Source: Deltaproteobacteria bacterium GWA2_45_12 (GTDB lineage: Bacteria; UBA10199). From it: a DNA stretch of 41,274 bases. The position numbers and the translations under genes are program-made. The stretch lies in NCBI GenBank assembly GCA_001797365.1, contig MGPH01000034.1:1-41274 (forward strand), in the 5' to 3' direction. Positions 1,340 to 24,623 of the stretch are shown here, in pieces; within the stretch, counting starts at the first letter, position 1; the number at the start of each line of letters is the position of its first letter. The notes under the pieces are model-generated. The model saw only the letters and a list, made by a program, of their open reading frames with translations. It was not told the origin of the DNA and searched no databases.

Positions 1340-3241
1340 GAACTCCAAATACCTCTCCCTCCACCATTGGAACATAAGCAGGGAAAAAAGCTGTTTGCGG
1401 TTATTTTTCTTGCCATCCAGATGGTCTTTGACCAAACGGGTAATAAATTCAGGATTAAACAACCCGTTTTTGCGAATTTTTTGGGGATCTAACACCCGCA
1501 ACATTTCTTGTTTCAACTCCGTTTTAAGCCAAAGGGAAATGGGAATCCCAAAACCTTTTTTAGGGCGATAGAGAATTTCGGAGGGGAGGATTTTTTCCAG
1601 GGCCTTTTTCAAAATATATTTTGTTTTTGTCCCTTTAAGTTTCAGGTTGTAAGGAATACGTGAAGCATATTCCACAACATTGACGTCCAAAAAGGGGGCA
1701 CGAACTTCAAGGGAATGCGCCATCGAGGCGCGATCGGCTTTGACAAGGATGTCATCACACAAATAAAATTTTTGGTAGAAGTAGAGCATGCGTTCCCCGG
1801 GATGAACCGAAGGACAATGGCGCATGGTTTCGACAACCAGATCCAATGGATTCGTAGGGGCGGGGTTCCCCCGCCCAGGGCACGGCAACCCCGCCCCTAC
1901 GAACAATCTCTCCTGCTCCCCTTGATGAAACGCCCCCAACCAAACCTGATTGCGGATCACGGGCGGGAACGAGGCTCCGTAGAGAAACTGCTTCAATTTA
2001 AATTCAAAACTCATGTCCTTATCCGAAACAGGCAGGGCATTTCCGGCCCCAACAATTATTTTTTGAAGTGCCGATGGCAGCTTCCAAAACCACTGGGCAA
2101 CATGCCCTGCAAAAAAAGTGGGGTAACCCGCAAAAAGCTCATCACCCCCATCCCCTCCCAAGGCCACCGTGACATGGTTACGAGTAAAAGCGGAGAGCAG
2201 ATAAGTAGGGATGATTGAGTAATCGGCAAAAGGTTCATCTAACACGGAAAGTACATTAGGAAGAATCTCAATCATCTTATGCGGTGTTAAAATTTGTTCA
2301 TGGTGATCGGTGCCAAATTTTTTGGCCACAAGACGCGCATAAGAAGTTTCGTCAAAAGACTTTTCCTCAAAACCAATGGAGAAAGTTTTGATATCTTTTC
2401 CCGGATGATGGCGGGCCATCAATCCCACAACAGCAGACGAATCGATTCCTCCCGAAAGAAAAACCCCAAGGGGCACATCACTGACTAACCTTGCCTCCAC
2501 CGCGCTATCAAGAAGGTCTAAAAGTTTGGGGGCAATGGAATTTTCATCTTCACAGACAGGGTTTCCAAGAGGAATATTCCAGTAGGGAGCAATCGTAATT
2601 CCATGCCCATCCCATTCCAAAAAATGGGCCTGGGGAAGTTTTTTTACCCCCTTAAAAATGGAAAAAGGCGCCGGGACATACTCATATTGAAAATAATGCT
2701 GAAGAGCCCCGTCATCCAACTGATTTGCAAAATCGGGATGGGGCCGAAAAGCCTTCGGCTCGGAGGCAAAGGCAAAATGAGCAGGCGTATCCCAATAATA
2801 AAATGGCTTCTTCCCCATGCGATCGCGCGCCGCAAAAAGTTTTTTATCGCGTTCGTCCCAAATGCAAAAGGCAAACATGCCATTGAGTTTGGATAAACAG
2901 GATTTCCCCTCGGCAATGTAAAGTTGAAGTAGCACTTCGGTATCAGAACGCGTGGAAAAGAGGACCCCTTTTTTTTCTAACCCGGCTTTAAGCTCGATAA
3001 AATTATAAATTTCTCCGTTAAAGGTAATGGTAAAACGGCCATCGGGTGAGGTCATGGGTTGGTGCCCACCAGAGGACAAATCGATAATGGCCAGACGCCG
3101 CTGCGCCAACCCCACTGGGCCTTTGACAAAATACCCTTCATCATCCGGCCCACGGTGGGCAAGGGTGCGATTCATTTTTTGCAAAATTTCAAGGGAAACA
3201 GGCTTGTTGTTTTTGTGGAGAATTCCGGAAATACCGCACAT
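1331..3241 (-). CDS. asnB: Asparagine synthetase (glutamine-hydrolysing)
   Basis: Two-domain amidotransferase that makes asparagine from aspartate, ATP and glutamine. Copies in glycan clusters often amidate sugar carboxylates instead. The start is set at MCGISG because Cys2 must become the N-terminal nucleophile, which gives 636 aa; an upstream in-frame start would bury it. The N-terminal glutaminase domain spans roughly residues 2-210 (RRLAIIDLS, NGEIYN, SDTEV). The synthetase domain follows with the PP-loop SGGIDSS and GGDGGDELFAGY. The C-terminal region has the expected KAD-x-x-SMA and EVRAPFLD motifs. A 53-bp perfect-armed palindrome is translated in frame inside the synthetase domain as a Gly/Pro-rich insert. 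Downstream it overlaps the convergent aminotransferase gene by 9 bp. Confidence 0.93.
   Translation of the reverse strand: MCGISGILHKNNKPVSLEILQKMNRTLAHRGPDDEGYFVKGPVGLAQRRLAIIDLSSGGHQPMTSPDGRFTITFNGEIYNFIELKAGLEKKGVLFSTRSDTEVLLQLYIAEGKSCLSKLNGMFAFCIWDERDKKLFAARDRMGKKPFYYWDTPAHFAFASEPKAFRPHPDFANQLDDGALQHYFQYEYVPAPFSIFKGVKKLPQAHFLEWDGHGITIAPYWNIPLGNPVCEDENSIAPKLLDLLDSAVEARLVSDVPLGVFLSGGIDSSAVVGLMARHHPGKDIKTFSIGFEEKSFDETSYARLVAKKFGTDHHEQILTPHKMIEILPNVLSVLDEPFADYSIIPTYLLSAFTRNHVTVALGGDGGDELFAGYPTFFAGHVAQWFWKLPSALQKIIVGAGNALPVSDKDMSFEFKLKQFLYGASFPPVIRNQVWLGAFHQGEQERLFVGAGLPCPGRGNPAPTNPLDLVVETMRHCPSVHPGERMLYFYQKFYLCDDILVKADRASMAHSLEVRAPFLDVNVVEYASRIPYNLKLKGTKTKYILKKALEKILPSEILYRPKKGFGIPISLWLKTELKQEMLRVLDPQKIRKNGLFNPEFITRLVKDHLDGKKNNRKQLFSLLMFQWWRERYLEFSN
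1851..1903. repeat. Palindromic repeat in frame within asnB
   Basis: Two perfect 17-bp arms (1851-1867 and 1887-1903, TTCGTAGGGGCGGGGTT and its complement) flank a 19-bp loop. The unit resembles the GTAGGGGC/GTAAGGGC palindromes found between genes elsewhere in the window (7937, 10204, 16101). Here it is read through by asnB and encodes a Gly/Pro-rich segment, FVGAGLPCPGRG followed by NPAPTN. Confidence 0.85.
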
Positions 3242-3366
3242 AAGAAAAATTCGAAATTCAAATGTCGAAATTCGAAACAATATTTAAATGCCAAATTCAA
3301 GTGCTTAAATTTTGAATTTTTTATGTTCGAATTTGTTTCGTATTTCGTGCTTCGAATTTCGATTTT
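3242..3366. repeat. A+T-rich spacer with AAATTCGAA-type repeats
   Basis: The spacer between asnB and the glycosyltransferase gene is made of repeated variants of TTCGAAATTCGAA and AAATTCAA on both strands. No gene is visible. The run extends to the asnB start and leaves no clear ribosome-binding site, so asnB is probably translated from a poor signal. This looks like an intergenic repeat rather than a regulatory site; its exact borders are uncertain. Confidence 0.45.
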
Positions 3367-16265: not shown

Positions 16266-16562
16266 TTGAAACTCATCAGCAAAAAAGATTCGAATCTTAT
16301 TTTTTATATTTTGGCTGTGGTCATTTTTTGCGGATTTATGTCTGCAACCTTTGGAAGTGAGGATGGTTTAAGCCGTTTGATGGAATTAAGGCAGAGAAAA
16401 ACAACCTTAGAGGAGAAAAACAAATCCATCCTTGAAGAAAACCTCAAACTCACTCAGGAAATAACGTCCCTTCATGACAAAAAAAACCTGGAGCACAAAG
16501 CTCGTGAGGTTTTGGGCTATGTTTATCCCGACGAAGTCGTCTTCGTGCTAAGACCAAATTAA
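16266..16562 (+). CDS. FtsB/DivIC-type septum formation initiator
   Basis: A 98-aa single-pass membrane protein of the FtsB/DivIC family, which links early and late divisome components through FtsL and FtsQ. It has a short basic N-terminus, one transmembrane helix (about 11-28, LIFYILAVVIFCGFMSAT), a coiled coil (about 38-78, heptads around LRQRKTTLEEKNKSILEENL) and the C-terminal EHKAREVLGYVYPDEVVF typical of the family. The start is TTG at 16266, supported by CAGGA a few bases upstream. The stop overlaps the convergent reductase-like gene by 4 bp. Confidence 0.8.
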   Translation: MKLISKKDSNLIFYILAVVIFCGFMSATFGSEDGLSRLMELRQRKTTLEEKNKSILEENLKLTQEITSLHDKKNLEHKAREVLGYVYPDEVVFVLRPN

Positions 16563-18532
16563 TAAGTTCCATCTTCGGGGACATCAAAGTAGGAATATTC
16601 TTTTGAAAAGCCCATTTGGTCATCCACAATTTTCTTTATCGAACGAACAAACCATTTTTGAGTTTCCTGCTTGGCAAAACACAAATGCCGCAAGCCATAA
16701 CGATGGGCCTGCAACAAGGCAAAAACAAGGTCTTCCGGTTTTGTACTTTCATCAAAAAGAATTTTTTTATACACCAACCCTTCCACATGCTCTTCAACAG
16801 CCGCTTGCAAGGCCAACTGCCCTTGAAGAGAAGCCATAGGCACTTGAGCTTCCAAACCGGGAGTGCATCCCCAAATGGAGGCCAGTGCATCCGTGCAAAA
16901 AAGATTGGTAATCAAACTGTGACGCCGCTTAAGCCCATGATGCACATACCATGAATCCGTAAATTTTTGGAAAACGCCCCTGTGACTGGCTAATCTGACA
17001 GAAGCTTCCTGTGATTTACGTTGTACAAAAGACATGATCTGGCTTGCCAAATCAACGGCTTCCTGGGAATCGTAAGGGATATCCAGACCTGAGAACACAT
17101 CGGCAAAGCCGGCAAGTCCCAAAGAAATTTTTCTGAAAGCAGAAGCTGTGTTTTTAAACTCTGGCCGCGGATAGGAAGCCACTTCCAAAATATTATCCAT
17201 AAATCTGATTCCCAAAAACAAAGTTTCCGCCAAAGCATCCCAAGAAAACTGGCCTTCTAATACAAATTTTGAAAGATTAATGGCTCCACAAGGAACAGCT
17301 TCATGATGAAGCAAGGGGACATCCCCCTCTACGCCCACGGTTTGGTAAGAACCAAAAGAAGCAACGGGGTTTAGAGAGTTAAACTTATCCATAAAAACAA
17401 AATCTAATTTTGCTCCGGATAAGATGGCATCAACAAACACGGCTAAAAGATCCCTGGCTTTTGTCATTTTAACCGGTTTGCCTGACTGGGAATGAACCAG
17501 GGGCCAAGGGCCATCACGATTTAACTCTTGAAAAAAAGAATCTTGAAGCCCCACTGTTAGTCTCAAATTTGTGGAATGTTTTTGAGAGACTGCTTTAACA
17601 AGTTCGACAATATCGGGATGATCCACCGGCAAAAAAGCAGCAGAAACAGGATGTTTGTTAAAAAATGAGCTGGTAACAGAATGATAAATGTTCAAAAACC
17701 CTTGGGGAGACAAGCCATTTTCTTTGGGATAAAGCTGTGAAAAATTAAAACTGCACATTCCTCCATTTTGATGGACAAAGGCCGCTTCCTTCATCGTTTC
17801 AAAAACAGAATCAATGGAATTATCCACTGAAAAACTAAAAGACGAAATAAGAATACTTCCCGGCTTCCCCGCATTTTGAAGAACGCTTATCTCTGGCAAG
17901 AACTCTCCCCTTGCCATCATCGCATAGAACTTGTCTTCTATTTCCTGTAACACAGAGATCGGCTGATAACGGGCTTCTCCTTCAGCAACACACCGAGCCA
18001 CACGCAAAAAACATTCCTGCACGGTTTCACGCACCGCGTTCTGCCCGTTAGCCAACAAAACGTGCTGTAAAAGATACTGGGTCCCCTCTTCACCAAATTC
18101 GGGCACAATACGCACAGATTTTAATGGCGCTTTTTCAGGGGCCATTTGCACACTTTCTTTTTGCAAGGCCATCACCGCCAAGAGATCGGGGTTTAAGGAT
18201 TCGTCTTTTTCGGGAAAGGGGTTGTTTTCGTTTTGAGCCGCATGGAGGACCGGACTATTTTTTAAACGAACAAGCCCCAGTTCATGAAGTTGAAAGGCCA
18301 CCAATTCACTCACCAATTCCAAAGATAAAAACTCGATCTTGCATCGTGAAATTTCTTTTTCAACCTCCGTGGCCACAAGCTCGGCAATAGACTGGGTTAT
18401 TTTGGAATGTCCCAAAGCCAAAAGCTCTGAAATAAGACGCACCCGATCAAACCTGAACTCTTTCCCTGGATGGGAAAACCCAAGAAACCCTTCTTTGGAC
18501 AAAACCTCTTTTTTTGGTTGAAAGACTTCCAT
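16559..18532 (-). CDS. Class II ribonucleotide reductase homologue lacking catalytic cysteines
   Basis: A 657-aa homologue of the vitamin B12-dependent reductase NrdJ. An ATP-cone-like region occupies about residues 15-90 (FRFDRVRLISELL to LVAFQLHELG). The barrel domain follows with recognisable blocks: FLPEISVLQNAG (211-222), HQNGGMCSFNFSQL (254-267), VDHPDI (303-308), PLLHHEA..CGAINLSKFV (406-424), RFMDNILEV and GLAGFADVF. Against the NrdJ pattern, the three cysteines needed for chemistry are gone: the one in GQLSACF aligns with S231, the thiyl-radical Cys of NPCGE with E402 (reads GVEGD), and its partner in YESCNLGS with V413. The phosphate-binding PTGT reads CTDA. Dehydrogenation of the 2'-OH is therefore very unlikely. 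It may be a nucleotide-sensing pseudoenzyme. No zinc-ribbon tail is present. Confidence 0.8.
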   Translation of the reverse strand: MEVFQPKKEVLSKEGFLGFSHPGKEFRFDRVRLISELLALGHSKITQSIAELVATEVEKEISRCKIEFLSLELVSELVAFQLHELGLVRLKNSPVLHAAQNENNPFPEKDESLNPDLLAVMALQKESVQMAPEKAPLKSVRIVPEFGEEGTQYLLQHVLLANGQNAVRETVQECFLRVARCVAEGEARYQPISVLQEIEDKFYAMMARGEFLPEISVLQNAGKPGSILISSFSFSVDNSIDSVFETMKEAAFVHQNGGMCSFNFSQLYPKENGLSPQGFLNIYHSVTSSFFNKHPVSAAFLPVDHPDIVELVKAVSQKHSTNLRLTVGLQDSFFQELNRDGPWPLVHSQSGKPVKMTKARDLLAVFVDAILSGAKLDFVFMDKFNSLNPVASFGSYQTVGVEGDVPLLHHEAVPCGAINLSKFVLEGQFSWDALAETLFLGIRFMDNILEVASYPRPEFKNTASAFRKISLGLAGFADVFSGLDIPYDSQEAVDLASQIMSFVQRKSQEASVRLASHRGVFQKFTDSWYVHHGLKRRHSLITNLFCTDALASIWGCTPGLEAQVPMASLQGQLALQAAVEEHVEGLVYKKILFDESTKPEDLVFALLQAHRYGLRHLCFAKQETQKWFVRSIKKIVDDQMGFSKEYSYFDVPEDGTY

Positions 18533-18600: not shown

Positions 18601-19653
18601 CTAAATGTCTTTTAAAATCTTTTTGGTCACCGTAGAAAGGGGTAACTCGTTTTTCTGCCATACAGAAACCCAATGCCAATCTTTGACAAGATTTTTGGGG
18701 CGGTTTGACAAAACAAGTTTAAATGGTCTGATCTGCATGCGTCTATTCATAATGGCATGGGACACGGGCCGCATCAGTGCTGGTTCAAAATTGAGTGGAA
18801 GGTTTAAGTCTTCTATCCATTGCTTTACCGCCTTCAAAGACGGAGCCCCCTCACAAACCTGCGTGGGGACTTCCCACAAACCTTCCATAATTTCCTTCTT
18901 GGTACGTTGCCGCATTAAAAAACATCCTTCATGTTCAACAACCAGAGCCATCGAATGTTCCTTAACATAAGCCATCTTTTTCCCTTTAACAGGATAACTC
19001 TCTGGCCTGCCTTCTTTAAAAGCGGCACACCCCTTCAATACGGGGCATAAAAGACATTTGGGATTGGAAGGGGTACATACCGTGGCCCCCAGCTCCATCA
19101 TGGCCTGGTTAAAATCTCCCGGATTATTTTTATCTAGAAGTTTCTGGGCCTTGATCGCAATATTTTTCTGTACATTTAAGGAATCCACACTTTCATGAAT
19201 GGCAAACAAACGAGCCATGACACGAATGACATTTCCGTCAACCACCGCTACAGGCTCACCAAAAGCAATGCTGGCAATAGCAGAGGCCGTATATTCCCCA
19301 AGCCCCTTCAAATTTTTTAGTGCCTCTTTTGTGGATGGAATTTTTCCGTCATGCTGATGAAAAATCTTTTGGGCTGACTCATGAAAGTGACGAATACGAC
19401 GATAATATCCCAGACCCGCCCATAATTTGAGGAGTTCTTCGATGGGAGCTTGGGCCACGGATTTTAAAGTCGGAAATTTCCTTAAAAAACGGTTGTAATA
19501 GGGAATCACTGTCGCCACCGTCGTCTGCTGAAGCATGATTTCGGAAAGCCAGATGGCATAAGGATCCTTAAATTTTCTCCAAGGAAGATCCCGCTTTTGG
19601 GATTGATACCAACAAAGGAGTTGCTTACGGAATTTTTGCGGGGAGAGGGCCAT
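18601..19653 (-). CDS. mutY: A/G-specific adenine glycosylase MutY
   Basis: Base-excision repair glycosylase removing adenine mispaired with 8-oxoguanine, 350 aa. LPWRKFKDPYAIWLSEIMLQ opens the HhH-GPD domain with the catalytic Glu at E38. The helix-hairpin-helix is KGLGEYTASAIAS, and D139 in VVDGNVIRV is the conserved catalytic Asp. The iron-sulfur loop is C193-x6-C200-x2-C203-x5-C209. The C-terminal part (about 230-350) is the NUDIX-like domain that recognises 8-oxoG (MEGLWEVPTQ, VSHAIMNRRMQIRPF). A symmetric hairpin repeat lies directly upstream. Confidence 0.95.
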   Translation of the reverse strand: MALSPQKFRKQLLCWYQSQKRDLPWRKFKDPYAIWLSEIMLQQTTVATVIPYYNRFLRKFPTLKSVAQAPIEELLKLWAGLGYYRRIRHFHESAQKIFHQHDGKIPSTKEALKNLKGLGEYTASAIASIAFGEPVAVVDGNVIRVMARLFAIHESVDSLNVQKNIAIKAQKLLDKNNPGDFNQAMMELGATVCTPSNPKCLLCPVLKGCAAFKEGRPESYPVKGKKMAYVKEHSMALVVEHEGCFLMRQRTKKEIMEGLWEVPTQVCEGAPSLKAVKQWIEDLNLPLNFEPALMRPVSHAIMNRRMQIRPFKLVLSNRPKNLVKDWHWVSVWQKNELPLSTVTKKILKDI

Positions 19654-22383: not shown

Positions 22384-22965
22384 ATGATTTCTTTCTTCAA
22401 AAATATTTTTCAGGGTGATTTCATGCCTCACGGGCATTGCTATTTTTGGGAGCCTGAAATCTTATGGCTGCACGTTATCTCCGATGTTGTCATTTTTTTG
22501 GCCTACTATTCCATCCCCCTTGCCCTTGTTTGCTTTCTCGTTAAACGTAAGGACATTCCTTTTCGTTTAATCTTTCTCCTCTTTGCCATTTTCATTCTTG
22601 CCTGCGGCACAACTCATATCATGGATGTGTGGACAACATGGAGCGCTGCCTATCGCATTGAGGGTCTGGTCAAGGCTTTTACCGCCCTCGTTTCGTTGAC
22701 AACGGCCATTATTTTATGGCCCTTGTTACCAAAGGCCATGGCCATTCCCACCCCTGCCCATTTTGAAAAAATAAACCTGAAACTTCAAAAAATAGCCGAG
22801 GAAGCCAACAAGAAAGCCTTCGAACTCGACAGTGCCAACCGCGAACTGGAACGATTCAACCTGGCCATGATGGGCCGCGAAGAGCGTATTCTCGAATTAA
22901 AAGCCGAAGTCAACGATCTTTGTCGAAAATTCAATCAACCCGAACCTTATAAAATTGAATCATAA
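22384..22965 (+). CDS. Ethylene-receptor-type membrane sensor domain protein
   Basis: A 193-aa membrane protein homologous to the N-terminal copper/ethylene-binding domain of plant ETR1 and cyanobacterial relatives. Three transmembrane helices are predicted (about 28-52, 60-80 and 92-115). The key residues keep the ETR1 spacing: D34 and Y41 in ISDVVIFLAYYSIPL, then C74 and H78 in ACGTTHIMDVW. These correspond to ETR1 D25, Y32, C65 and H69, where Cys and His ligate Cu(I). A coiled-coil tail (about 125-165) ends in LERFNLAMMGREERILELKA, a linker that usually precedes a kinase. Here the chain simply stops, and a separate kinase gene begins 2 bp later. The ligand is unproven; relatives sense ethylene or other small molecules. 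Confidence 0.85.
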   Translation: MISFFKNIFQGDFMPHGHCYFWEPEILWLHVISDVVIFLAYYSIPLALVCFLVKRKDIPFRLIFLLFAIFILACGTTHIMDVWTTWSAAYRIEGLVKAFTALVSLTTAIILWPLLPKAMAIPTPAHFEKINLKLQKIAEEANKKAFELDSANRELERFNLAMMGREERILELKAEVNDLCRKFNQPEPYKIES

Positions 22966-22967
22966 CC

Positions 22968-24623
22968 ATGATGTCTTTGCGCATACGATTTATTCTGGTT
23001 TTCTTGATCACCATTCCCATCCTCTTTGGCATATCCTGGCTTATGGCCGATTATTATTTTCCCATAAATGACAAGTACAGGTGGGTTGCCCTTACCATCG
23101 CTTTAATCGTCATCATCACCAGCTTGAATTTGTACCTGCTTAACCCCGTTTGCAAATCGATTAAATTATTGCAGACGGCCATTGAGCAAATCCGCAATGG
23201 TAATTTCGAAGCAATCACAAATTTATGGGAAGATGTCTCGGGTCCGGAAATGAAAAAAATGGCCGAATCGCTTAGAATCATGGCCGAACAGCTCATGAAT
23301 ATTCAGTTTAATCTGGAAGAGAAGGTGGCAAAAAGAACCCAGGAACTTAAAGAAAGGAATGAACAACTCATCAAGTCACGTCAGGCCGCCTTAAGTGTTG
23401 TTGAAGATGTCTTAATTGAAAAGAAAAAAACGGAACAAGCCCATGAAGATCTCAGAAAGATAAAAGACGAATTGGATCTAAGAGTAAAATTGCGCACCGA
23501 AGAACTTAAAAAGAGCGAAGAAAAGTTCCGTCTTACCTTCCAGGCCGCACCCAACGGATTAATCATGGTTGATCATACCGGTAAAATCGTTCTCATGAAC
23601 ACCCAGATTGAAAAAATGTTCCTGTATTCCCAGAATGAACTGGCGGGGCAATCAATTGAAACCCTTGTCCCGCAAAGGTTTCATTCAAATCATGTTCATT
23701 ACCGCAGTCAATTCATGCAGGAACCGCAAGATCGTCAGATGGGGGCCGGCCGTGATTTGTTCGGTAAACGAAAAGATGGCACAGAATTTCCGGTAGAAAT
23801 AGGGCTGAAGCCTTTGGTCACTGAAGAAGGCGTTTTTGTCCTAAGCTCCATCATCGACATTACCGAAAGAAAAAATGCCGAAGAAAAAGTTAAAAAAGCC
23901 AATGAGGATTTAAAAAGGGCCAATCAATTAAAATCATCCTTTGTTTCGATGGTCTCCCATGAATTGAGAACCCCTCTTTCTTCCATGAAAGCAGGTATCG
24001 ATATGCTTTTGGCCGGCATTGATGGCCCTGTTAATGATGAACAACGCGAAACCCTTTTAATCGCCCAGAAAAACATCGACCGTTTGGCACGTCTTATCAG
24101 TAACGTTTTGGATTACACGCGATTGGAAGCCGGCAAGATGGAAATGGATTTTGCCAACATTAATTTAAACGAACTCGTCAATGAGGCTTGTCAATCGATG
24201 AAGCATGCCATCCTTGAAAAGGGATTGATCCTGGAAACAATTTTGCCACAAACACCTCTTTTTAGTTCCTGCGATGAAGACAGGCTCAAACAGGTCATCC
24301 TCAATCTGCTAAGTAACGCCATCAAGTTCACTGAAAGTGGTGGCAAAATTATTATTTCACTTAAAAAAACCGACGGCATCCTTTGTATCGAGGTCAAAGA
24401 TAACGGAATCGGGATAGATAAGGAAGATCAGAACAGGATTTTTGAAATGTTCAATCAGGCCATCACCCGTGGCATCTGGAAAACAGGCGGCTCTGGAATA
24501 GGACTTGCCGTTTGCCGGCTTATTCTTGAACAACATCGTGGAAAAATTACTGTTCAAAGTCAACCTGGGAATGGCTCTACTTTTTCAATCACATTTCCGC
24601 AAAATTTGTCAGCGTCTGCTTGA
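22968..24623 (+). CDS. PAS-containing sensor histidine kinase
   Basis: A 551-aa membrane histidine kinase. Two transmembrane helices (about 7-26 and 38-58) are separated by a very short exposed segment, so it has almost no periplasmic sensor of its own. A HAMP-like segment (59-112), a long coiled coil (113-185) and a PAS domain (about 186-303, closing IDITERK) follow. HisKA has the phosphorylated H331 in VSMVSHELRTPLSSM. HATPase has the N box (NLLSNAIKF), DNGIGID and TGGSGIGLAV. Its ATG lies 2 bp after the ethylene-receptor-like gene, with no clear ribosome-binding site, so coupled translation and a shared signalling complex are likely. The 3' end overlaps the convergent receiver gene by 35 bp. 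Confidence 0.92.
   Translation: MMSLRIRFILVFLITIPILFGISWLMADYYFPINDKYRWVALTIALIVIITSLNLYLLNPVCKSIKLLQTAIEQIRNGNFEAITNLWEDVSGPEMKKMAESLRIMAEQLMNIQFNLEEKVAKRTQELKERNEQLIKSRQAALSVVEDVLIEKKKTEQAHEDLRKIKDELDLRVKLRTEELKKSEEKFRLTFQAAPNGLIMVDHTGKIVLMNTQIEKMFLYSQNELAGQSIETLVPQRFHSNHVHYRSQFMQEPQDRQMGAGRDLFGKRKDGTEFPVEIGLKPLVTEEGVFVLSSIIDITERKNAEEKVKKANEDLKRANQLKSSFVSMVSHELRTPLSSMKAGIDMLLAGIDGPVNDEQRETLLIAQKNIDRLARLISNVLDYTRLEAGKMEMDFANINLNELVNEACQSMKHAILEKGLILETILPQTPLFSSCDEDRLKQVILNLLSNAIKFTESGGKIIISLKKTDGILCIEVKDNGIGIDKEDQNRIFEMFNQAITRGIWKTGGSGIGLAVCRLILEQHRGKITVQSQPGNGSTFSITFPQNLSASA

Follow-up and report, generated by a model that had tools for sequence, protein, structure and literature searches.

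Ribonucleotide reductases (RNRs) are among the most constrained enzymes known. NrdR, a repressor with an ATP-cone plus a zinc ribbon, is a stand-alone RNR regulator. Class II NrdJ, represented by the T. maritima structures 1xje and 3o0q and by the models TIGR02504 and PRK08665, combines a ten-stranded barrel with an all-alpha domain. Every known RNR is described as having a radical cysteine, and loops 1 and 2 have been identified on structural grounds as the sites where effectors are bound and read out (PMC4390871). A cryptic function has been argued for the ATP-cones of class II enzymes, and non-functional inner ATP-cones as well as the half cone of class Ib NrdE are treated as remnants that followed loss of nucleotide binding or activity regulation (PMC9669993). 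Among viruses, MCMV M45, an inactive betaherpesvirus R1, is described as non-catalytic and used for protein-protein interactions (PMC12282084, citing Lembo 2004). No report of a bacterial or other cellular RNR pseudoenzyme was found in the open-access literature.

The window, the whole stretch of 41,274 nucleotides that was analysed, holds a gene whose product is homologous to NrdJ along its length (Table 1), as the first-pass annotation had proposed. Both PF02867 (the barrel, 2.5e-35) and PF00317 (8.6e-9) pass the Pfam cut-off, and the closest solved structure by sequence is T. maritima NrdJ 1xje (HMMER, E 8.7e-32). Sequence searches and the tree place the closest kin of the protein among short class II NrdJ. 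It shares with class II NrdJ the barrel and the all-alpha domain and retains HPDI, INL, RFMDN, and R..LG..GF, but lacks the three catalytic cysteines along with those of the C-terminus, the active-site Asn and Glu, both effector loops (1 and 2), and the phosphate loop. The NCBIfam scores lie far under their cut-offs (303.9 vs 961 for TIGR02504; 203.8 vs 399.95 for PRK08665). The 657 codons run uninterrupted, as reported before; the strand, minus, is added here. GC by codon position in the gene is similar to that of neighbouring genes.

Table 1. Coordinates of the NrdJ-like gene, its domains and altered sites, the adjacent mutY, and a second Cys-less NrdJ in a relative (positions in the window unless another locus is given).
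Feature	Position	Strand	Details
NrdJ-like Cys-less pseudoenzyme CDS	16559..18532	minus	657 aa; ATG start, ending at 18532; last codon 16562-16564; stop 16559-16561
ATP-cone-like helical domain, truncated	18278..18445	minus	~residues 30-85; cone N-terminal segment absent; pLDDT, PF03477 in relatives
PF00317 all-alpha domain	17858..18097	minus	residues 146-225; Pfam
PF02867 barrel domain	16940..17845	minus	residues 230-531; holds the lost active site
S231 codon, replaces Cys134	17840..17842	minus	two alignments
Loop 1 deleted (NG-LSPQ) and loop 2 replaced by NKHPVSAA	17630..17725	minus	residues 270-301
E402 codon, replaces thiyl-radical Cys322	17327..17329	minus	NPCGE to GVEGD; two alignments
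V413 codon, replaces Cys333	17294..17296	minus	two alignments
CTDA in the place of phosphate-loop PTGT	16886..16897	minus	residues 546-549; alignment
Disordered C-terminal tail, SYFDVPEDGTY	16562..16651	minus	residues 628-657; pLDDT <50; no CxxC redox pair
mutY	18601..19653	minus	68 bases upstream of the pseudo-NrdJ start, same strand
Second Cys-less NrdJ of G026, 558 aa	L036 1504-3177 (G026:C33, about 1659-3314)	minus	LLSSF, SPYGE, GVIYGS, PTDL

All three catalytic cysteines are gone, in agreement with the first-pass annotation: C134 is S231, C322 is E402, and C333 is V413, with N320 as G400, E324 as D404, and PTGT as CTDA, the last likewise noted before (T. maritima numbering). The cysteine replacements agree in two independent alignments, one by HMMER against 1xje and one by MAFFT with 61 sequences. 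No cysteine takes the finger-loop place, residues 390-412 containing none, and the last 60 residues hold a single one (C617), the C-terminal Cys pair or zinc ribbon being absent. Effector loop 1 is deleted, and of loop 2 (canonically GGxRRGANMG) the RRGANM residues are retained in almost none of the 11 members of the main inactive group. Kept and lost positions were judged in alignment columns at least 95% invariant among canonical sequences. There the inactive members have lost the NPCGE and PTGT motifs together with the GGGTG loop and the RRGANM of loop 2, while the structural positions F211, P213, N419, F444, D446, N447, R467, G475, Y487, and R518 were fixed in them.

Canonical NrdJ outside the phylum provides the measure of these losses. 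NPCGE is present in 80 of the 80 highest-scoring out-of-phylum matches among those listed, and the exact strings SACF, CNLG/AS, and PTGT are found in nearly all of the best 80 listed; minor variants such as AACF, CVLGS, or PTGS occur. Because the best 80 matches listed keep the motifs, the losses amount to more than chance. A scan of genome contigs returned at least 80 loci from outside the window's phylum, all of them canonical NrdJ among the matches listed. Plasmid and phage searches gave only matches below 60% identity and below 80% coverage, those listed being mostly ordinary reductases by annotation only; a Haladaptatus plasmid match (74% coverage), considered as a further Cys-less case, keeps NPCGE and is ordinary. 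Judged by its residues, the window protein is a descendant of NrdJ without the defining chemistry and, by the test of membership, no NrdJ enzyme.

The predicted fold is in keeping with this assignment. An AlphaFold2 model built on the 61-row alignment has a mean pLDDT of 85.5, with the barrel above 90 and residues 1-22 and 628-657 mostly below 50. The best solved match by Foldseek is T. maritima NrdJ 3o0q (E 5.3e-35, TM 0.68/0.72, 21-22% identity over ~610 columns). In the model, S231 opens strand 231-235, E402 lies in the counterpart of the finger loop, and V413 stands just before strand 415-419, which is the placement that the sequence alignment requires. The ATP-cone-like N-terminus that had also been claimed is upheld in part: helices at 30-39, 47-64, and 71-84 have high pLDDT, and relatives align partially to PF03477, but their matches start no earlier than position 12 or 13 of 88, with E 0.007-0.045, below the cut-off, and the window protein itself has no Pfam match to the ATP-cone even at E 1. 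Complete cones on three canonical NrdJ from other phyla score 56-82 bits. From alignment and model together, the N-terminal domain is a putative cone remnant, and most main-group members have such a cone-like helical domain. It is in this respect like the inner ATP-cones and the NrdE half cone, which differ in being carried by active reductases.

Relatives were searched in 46 genomes, and the class and phylum searches returned the same set. A search for orthologues with the same Cys losses had been proposed by the first-pass annotation; inactive homologues occur in several families (G001, G002, G003, G004, G007, G019, G022, G025, G026, and G039), and those with the same barrel losses span the window's order and three other families of the phylum, with nearly all frames intact. 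Within the order, strongly degenerate homologues are found in four (G001, G002, G003, G004) of the seven genomes besides the window's own; those of G002 and G003 are smaller and more diverged, and the G003 frame is broken. The G007 homologue keeps the cysteines yet has DPCSG for NPCGE and DDPL for PTGT; its Asn and Glu are gone, as is its phosphate loop. At the mutY locus, the G006 homologue is canonical. The mutY-linked NrdJ of G005 has canonical residues, but ~41 bases are deleted out of frame exactly at loop 1, which splits the gene (L024 6900-7300, G005:C40, minus); the deletion may be real decay or an assembly fault. Members of three further families (G019/G020/G021/G022/G025; G026; G039) carry an inactive version of greater length (858-1022 aa) that shares the cone remnant and has a TSCPD domain at the C-terminus, the G020 and G021 copies being known only in pieces.

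An LG+G4 tree sets the 11 inactive sequences of the main group apart by a branch with 100/100 support, and the canonical G005 and G006 proteins stand next to them. Under a mixture model without G002 and G003, nine inactive sequences group together at 78/74, and this set plus G005/G006 at 98/99. Because the branches are long, these trees make a single origin of the main inactive group likely, short of proof. The short Cys-less NrdJ of G026, a genome that also has the long inactive version, is placed instead, with 100/100 support, beside the short canonical NrdJ of family f11. That all Cys-less NrdJ of the phylum go back to one origin was rejected for this protein (AU p 5.5e-5), and the phylogeny indicates that it was inactivated independently of the window's family.

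The first-pass annotation had asked whether the genome has another, intact NrdJ. It does: a long one, encoded separately, in which SNPCSE, ACNLAS, PTGT, and cysteines at the C-terminus are all present. A search of the window's genome for a class I small subunit gave no match. An ATP-cone/NrdR match was likewise not found there, vs NrdR in 28 of the 29 good-quality genomes of the class. Since every relative carrying a pseudoenzyme has NrdR, the gap in the window's genome is probably explained by sequence missing from the assembly or by a loss private to this genome. The idea of the pseudoenzyme as an NrdR replacement was rejected because these relatives all retain the repressor, so that NrdR is not replaced where both occur; the window protein also differs from NrdR in having neither a zinc ribbon nor a complete cone. 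The gene had been described as standing alone next to mutY, of which the adjacency held but not the isolation, the gene lying close downstream of mutY in the same orientation. This adjacency is common to five genomes (the window's, G001, G004, G005, and G006), and two of the five orthologues retain the cysteines. Elsewhere the neighbours are a divergent LysM/SLT lipoprotein (next to the long inactive version in G019, G021, G022, G026, and G039), DUF507 plus groESL (G007), or smc (G002/G003). No consistent operon partner was found across the neighbourhoods of the examined lineages. Because the neighbours vary by lineage, operon logic was dropped as a route to a partner, and none can be named from context.

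The explanation that we consider probable is that of a retained NrdJ-family (class II RNR) pseudoenzyme, its barrel shell selected for a non-catalytic, most likely protein-protein role. An ancestral NrdJ with a cone-like N-terminus beside mutY would have lost catalysis, and the long NrdJ elsewhere in the genome would have gone on supplying dNTPs. The barrel shell would then have been retained by selection for a non-catalytic role, possibly as a regulatory or scaffolding partner that works through its barrel surface and its disordered tail at the C-terminus, with no reading of nucleotides. A protein-binding role best fits the conserved barrel core together with the YF..P tail motif in predicted disorder, a motif that the window protein shares with its inactive counterparts in G001 and G004 and, loosely, with that in G003. 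That protein binding is the actual job, we infer with about even odds. Binding another reductase, one of two functions offered by the first-pass annotation, is putatively the best-fitting kind, and the active NrdJ as the partner is a speculative and rather doubtful suggestion. More doubtful again is the wider proposal that a non-catalytic NrdJ family, spread over several families of one phylum, binds and regulates a working class II reductase or a repair partner such as MutY, which would constitute a cellular reductase/pseudo-reductase pair. The inactive R1 of betaherpesviruses is likewise an RNR large-subunit homologue retained without catalysis (PMC12282084), but it is class I-derived, viral, and has known host partners, whereas the window protein is class II and encoded on a bacterial chromosome. 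The origins are independent; the repurposing of R1 for host-protein binding suggests by analogy that such a change is possible, as a parallel rather than as kinship.

Retention by selection has to be weighed against the alternative of a gene on its way out, recently inactivated and with a frame still uninterrupted. The inactive genes do evolve faster than the active enzyme, and the G005 orthologue, which keeps its cysteines yet is split, means that the locus can decay. However, with the exception of G003, the main-group inactive homologues that were read have intact frames at only 20-36% identity to the window protein, and orthologues gave no sign of random frame decay; like the absence of a finger-loop cysteine, this outcome of a check named by the first-pass annotation favours what it had observed. 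Neutral copies would lose the frame far earlier, as 0 of 100 simulated copies kept it open at 0.1 substitutions per site. Furthermore, the dN/dS of the long inactive versions is 0.21 for G022/G020 (dS 0.18) and 0.25-0.28 for G022/G021, rising to 0.51 for G022/G019; the active short NrdJ of G022/G020 gives 0.04. Purifying selection thus acts on these near relatives in another family, more weakly than on the active enzyme. Selection on the window's own gene is presumed from its frame integrity and from the constraint on these more distant cousins, and the patchiness and fast evolution of the inactive group (dN/dS up to 0.5) indicate that constraint is weak. A frame kept across genomes whose catalytic residues are lost, the pattern by which a retained pseudoenzyme was recognised, was found here. 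Decay in progress accordingly has a slim chance, and the earlier description of a conserved, non-decaying NrdJ-derived pseudoenzyme stands, with intact inactive homologues in several families, dN/dS of 0.21-0.28 in near relatives, and a confident barrel.

Three further explanations concern what the protein might do with small molecules. The other function offered by the first-pass annotation was nucleotide sensing, in which the protein would bind ATP/dATP or dNTP effectors and signal to another reductase or regulator. The retained cone-like domain and the cryptic function argued for class II cones (PMC9669993) would suit a sensor, but this claim was not supported: beside the loss of NPCGE and of the phosphate loop PTGT, loops 1 and 2, which bind and read effectors (PMC4390871), are deleted and erased, respectively, and the cone lacks its N-terminal segment and falls below the Pfam cut-off, in contrast to the scores of canonical NrdJ cones. 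Such damage to active site, specificity site, and cone makes sensing unlikely, as far as the residues allow a prediction. A new activity other than ribonucleotide reduction in a remodelled pocket is improbable as well. The barrel is confident with an intact core, and pocket positions are altered rather than just deleted, but new shared chemistry should fix residues there, and the columns of C322, E324, C333, and PTGT instead differ in nearly every inactive member. Least credible of all is an active reductase with relocated cysteines (C260, C415, C546). C415 shares a strand with V413, at a distance of two residues, and C546 takes the place of the PTGT proline, positions from which both may face the pocket; yet the finger loop and its surroundings hold no cysteine, neither the Glu nor the Asn is left, C415 and C546 are found in the window protein alone, the C-terminal redox pair is absent, and the radical cysteine is otherwise described in all known RNRs (PMC4390871).

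A lineage with dead copies beside an active one, the G007 intermediate, and the canonical G006 gene at the same locus together outline a stepwise route from an essential enzyme to a pseudoenzyme, and raise the question of a dead RNR's use in a cell. The independent inactivation in G026, if true, would mean that these bacteria have repeatedly recruited dead reductases. There is also a warning for annotation, as such frames score above the Pfam threshold for RNR and could be mistaken for working reductases.

Several observations were made alongside. Long NrdJ frames of 1435-1686 aa with split matches occur in G001:C23, G008:C60, G009:C19, G026:C33:113518, G031:C3, G041:C56, and G043:C108, most other long NrdJ frames measuring ~950-1250 aa; inserts such as inteins are possible in the former. 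G048, an NC_groundwater MAG, has four NrdJ-type genes (L146, L149), three of them short (frames of 563-584 aa). A nucleosidase-like gene of the PF01048 phosphorylase superfamily adjoins the pseudo-NrdJ of G001 (L020 5750-6490), and a look-alike lies near that of G004 (L023 10399-11070); the window has no such gene. Finally, the window encodes a 193-aa membrane protein (22384-22965, plus strand) directly 5′ of a separate PAS/histidine kinase gene (22968-24623, plus strand), and this protein presumably resembles the ethylene-binding domain of ETR1-like receptors.
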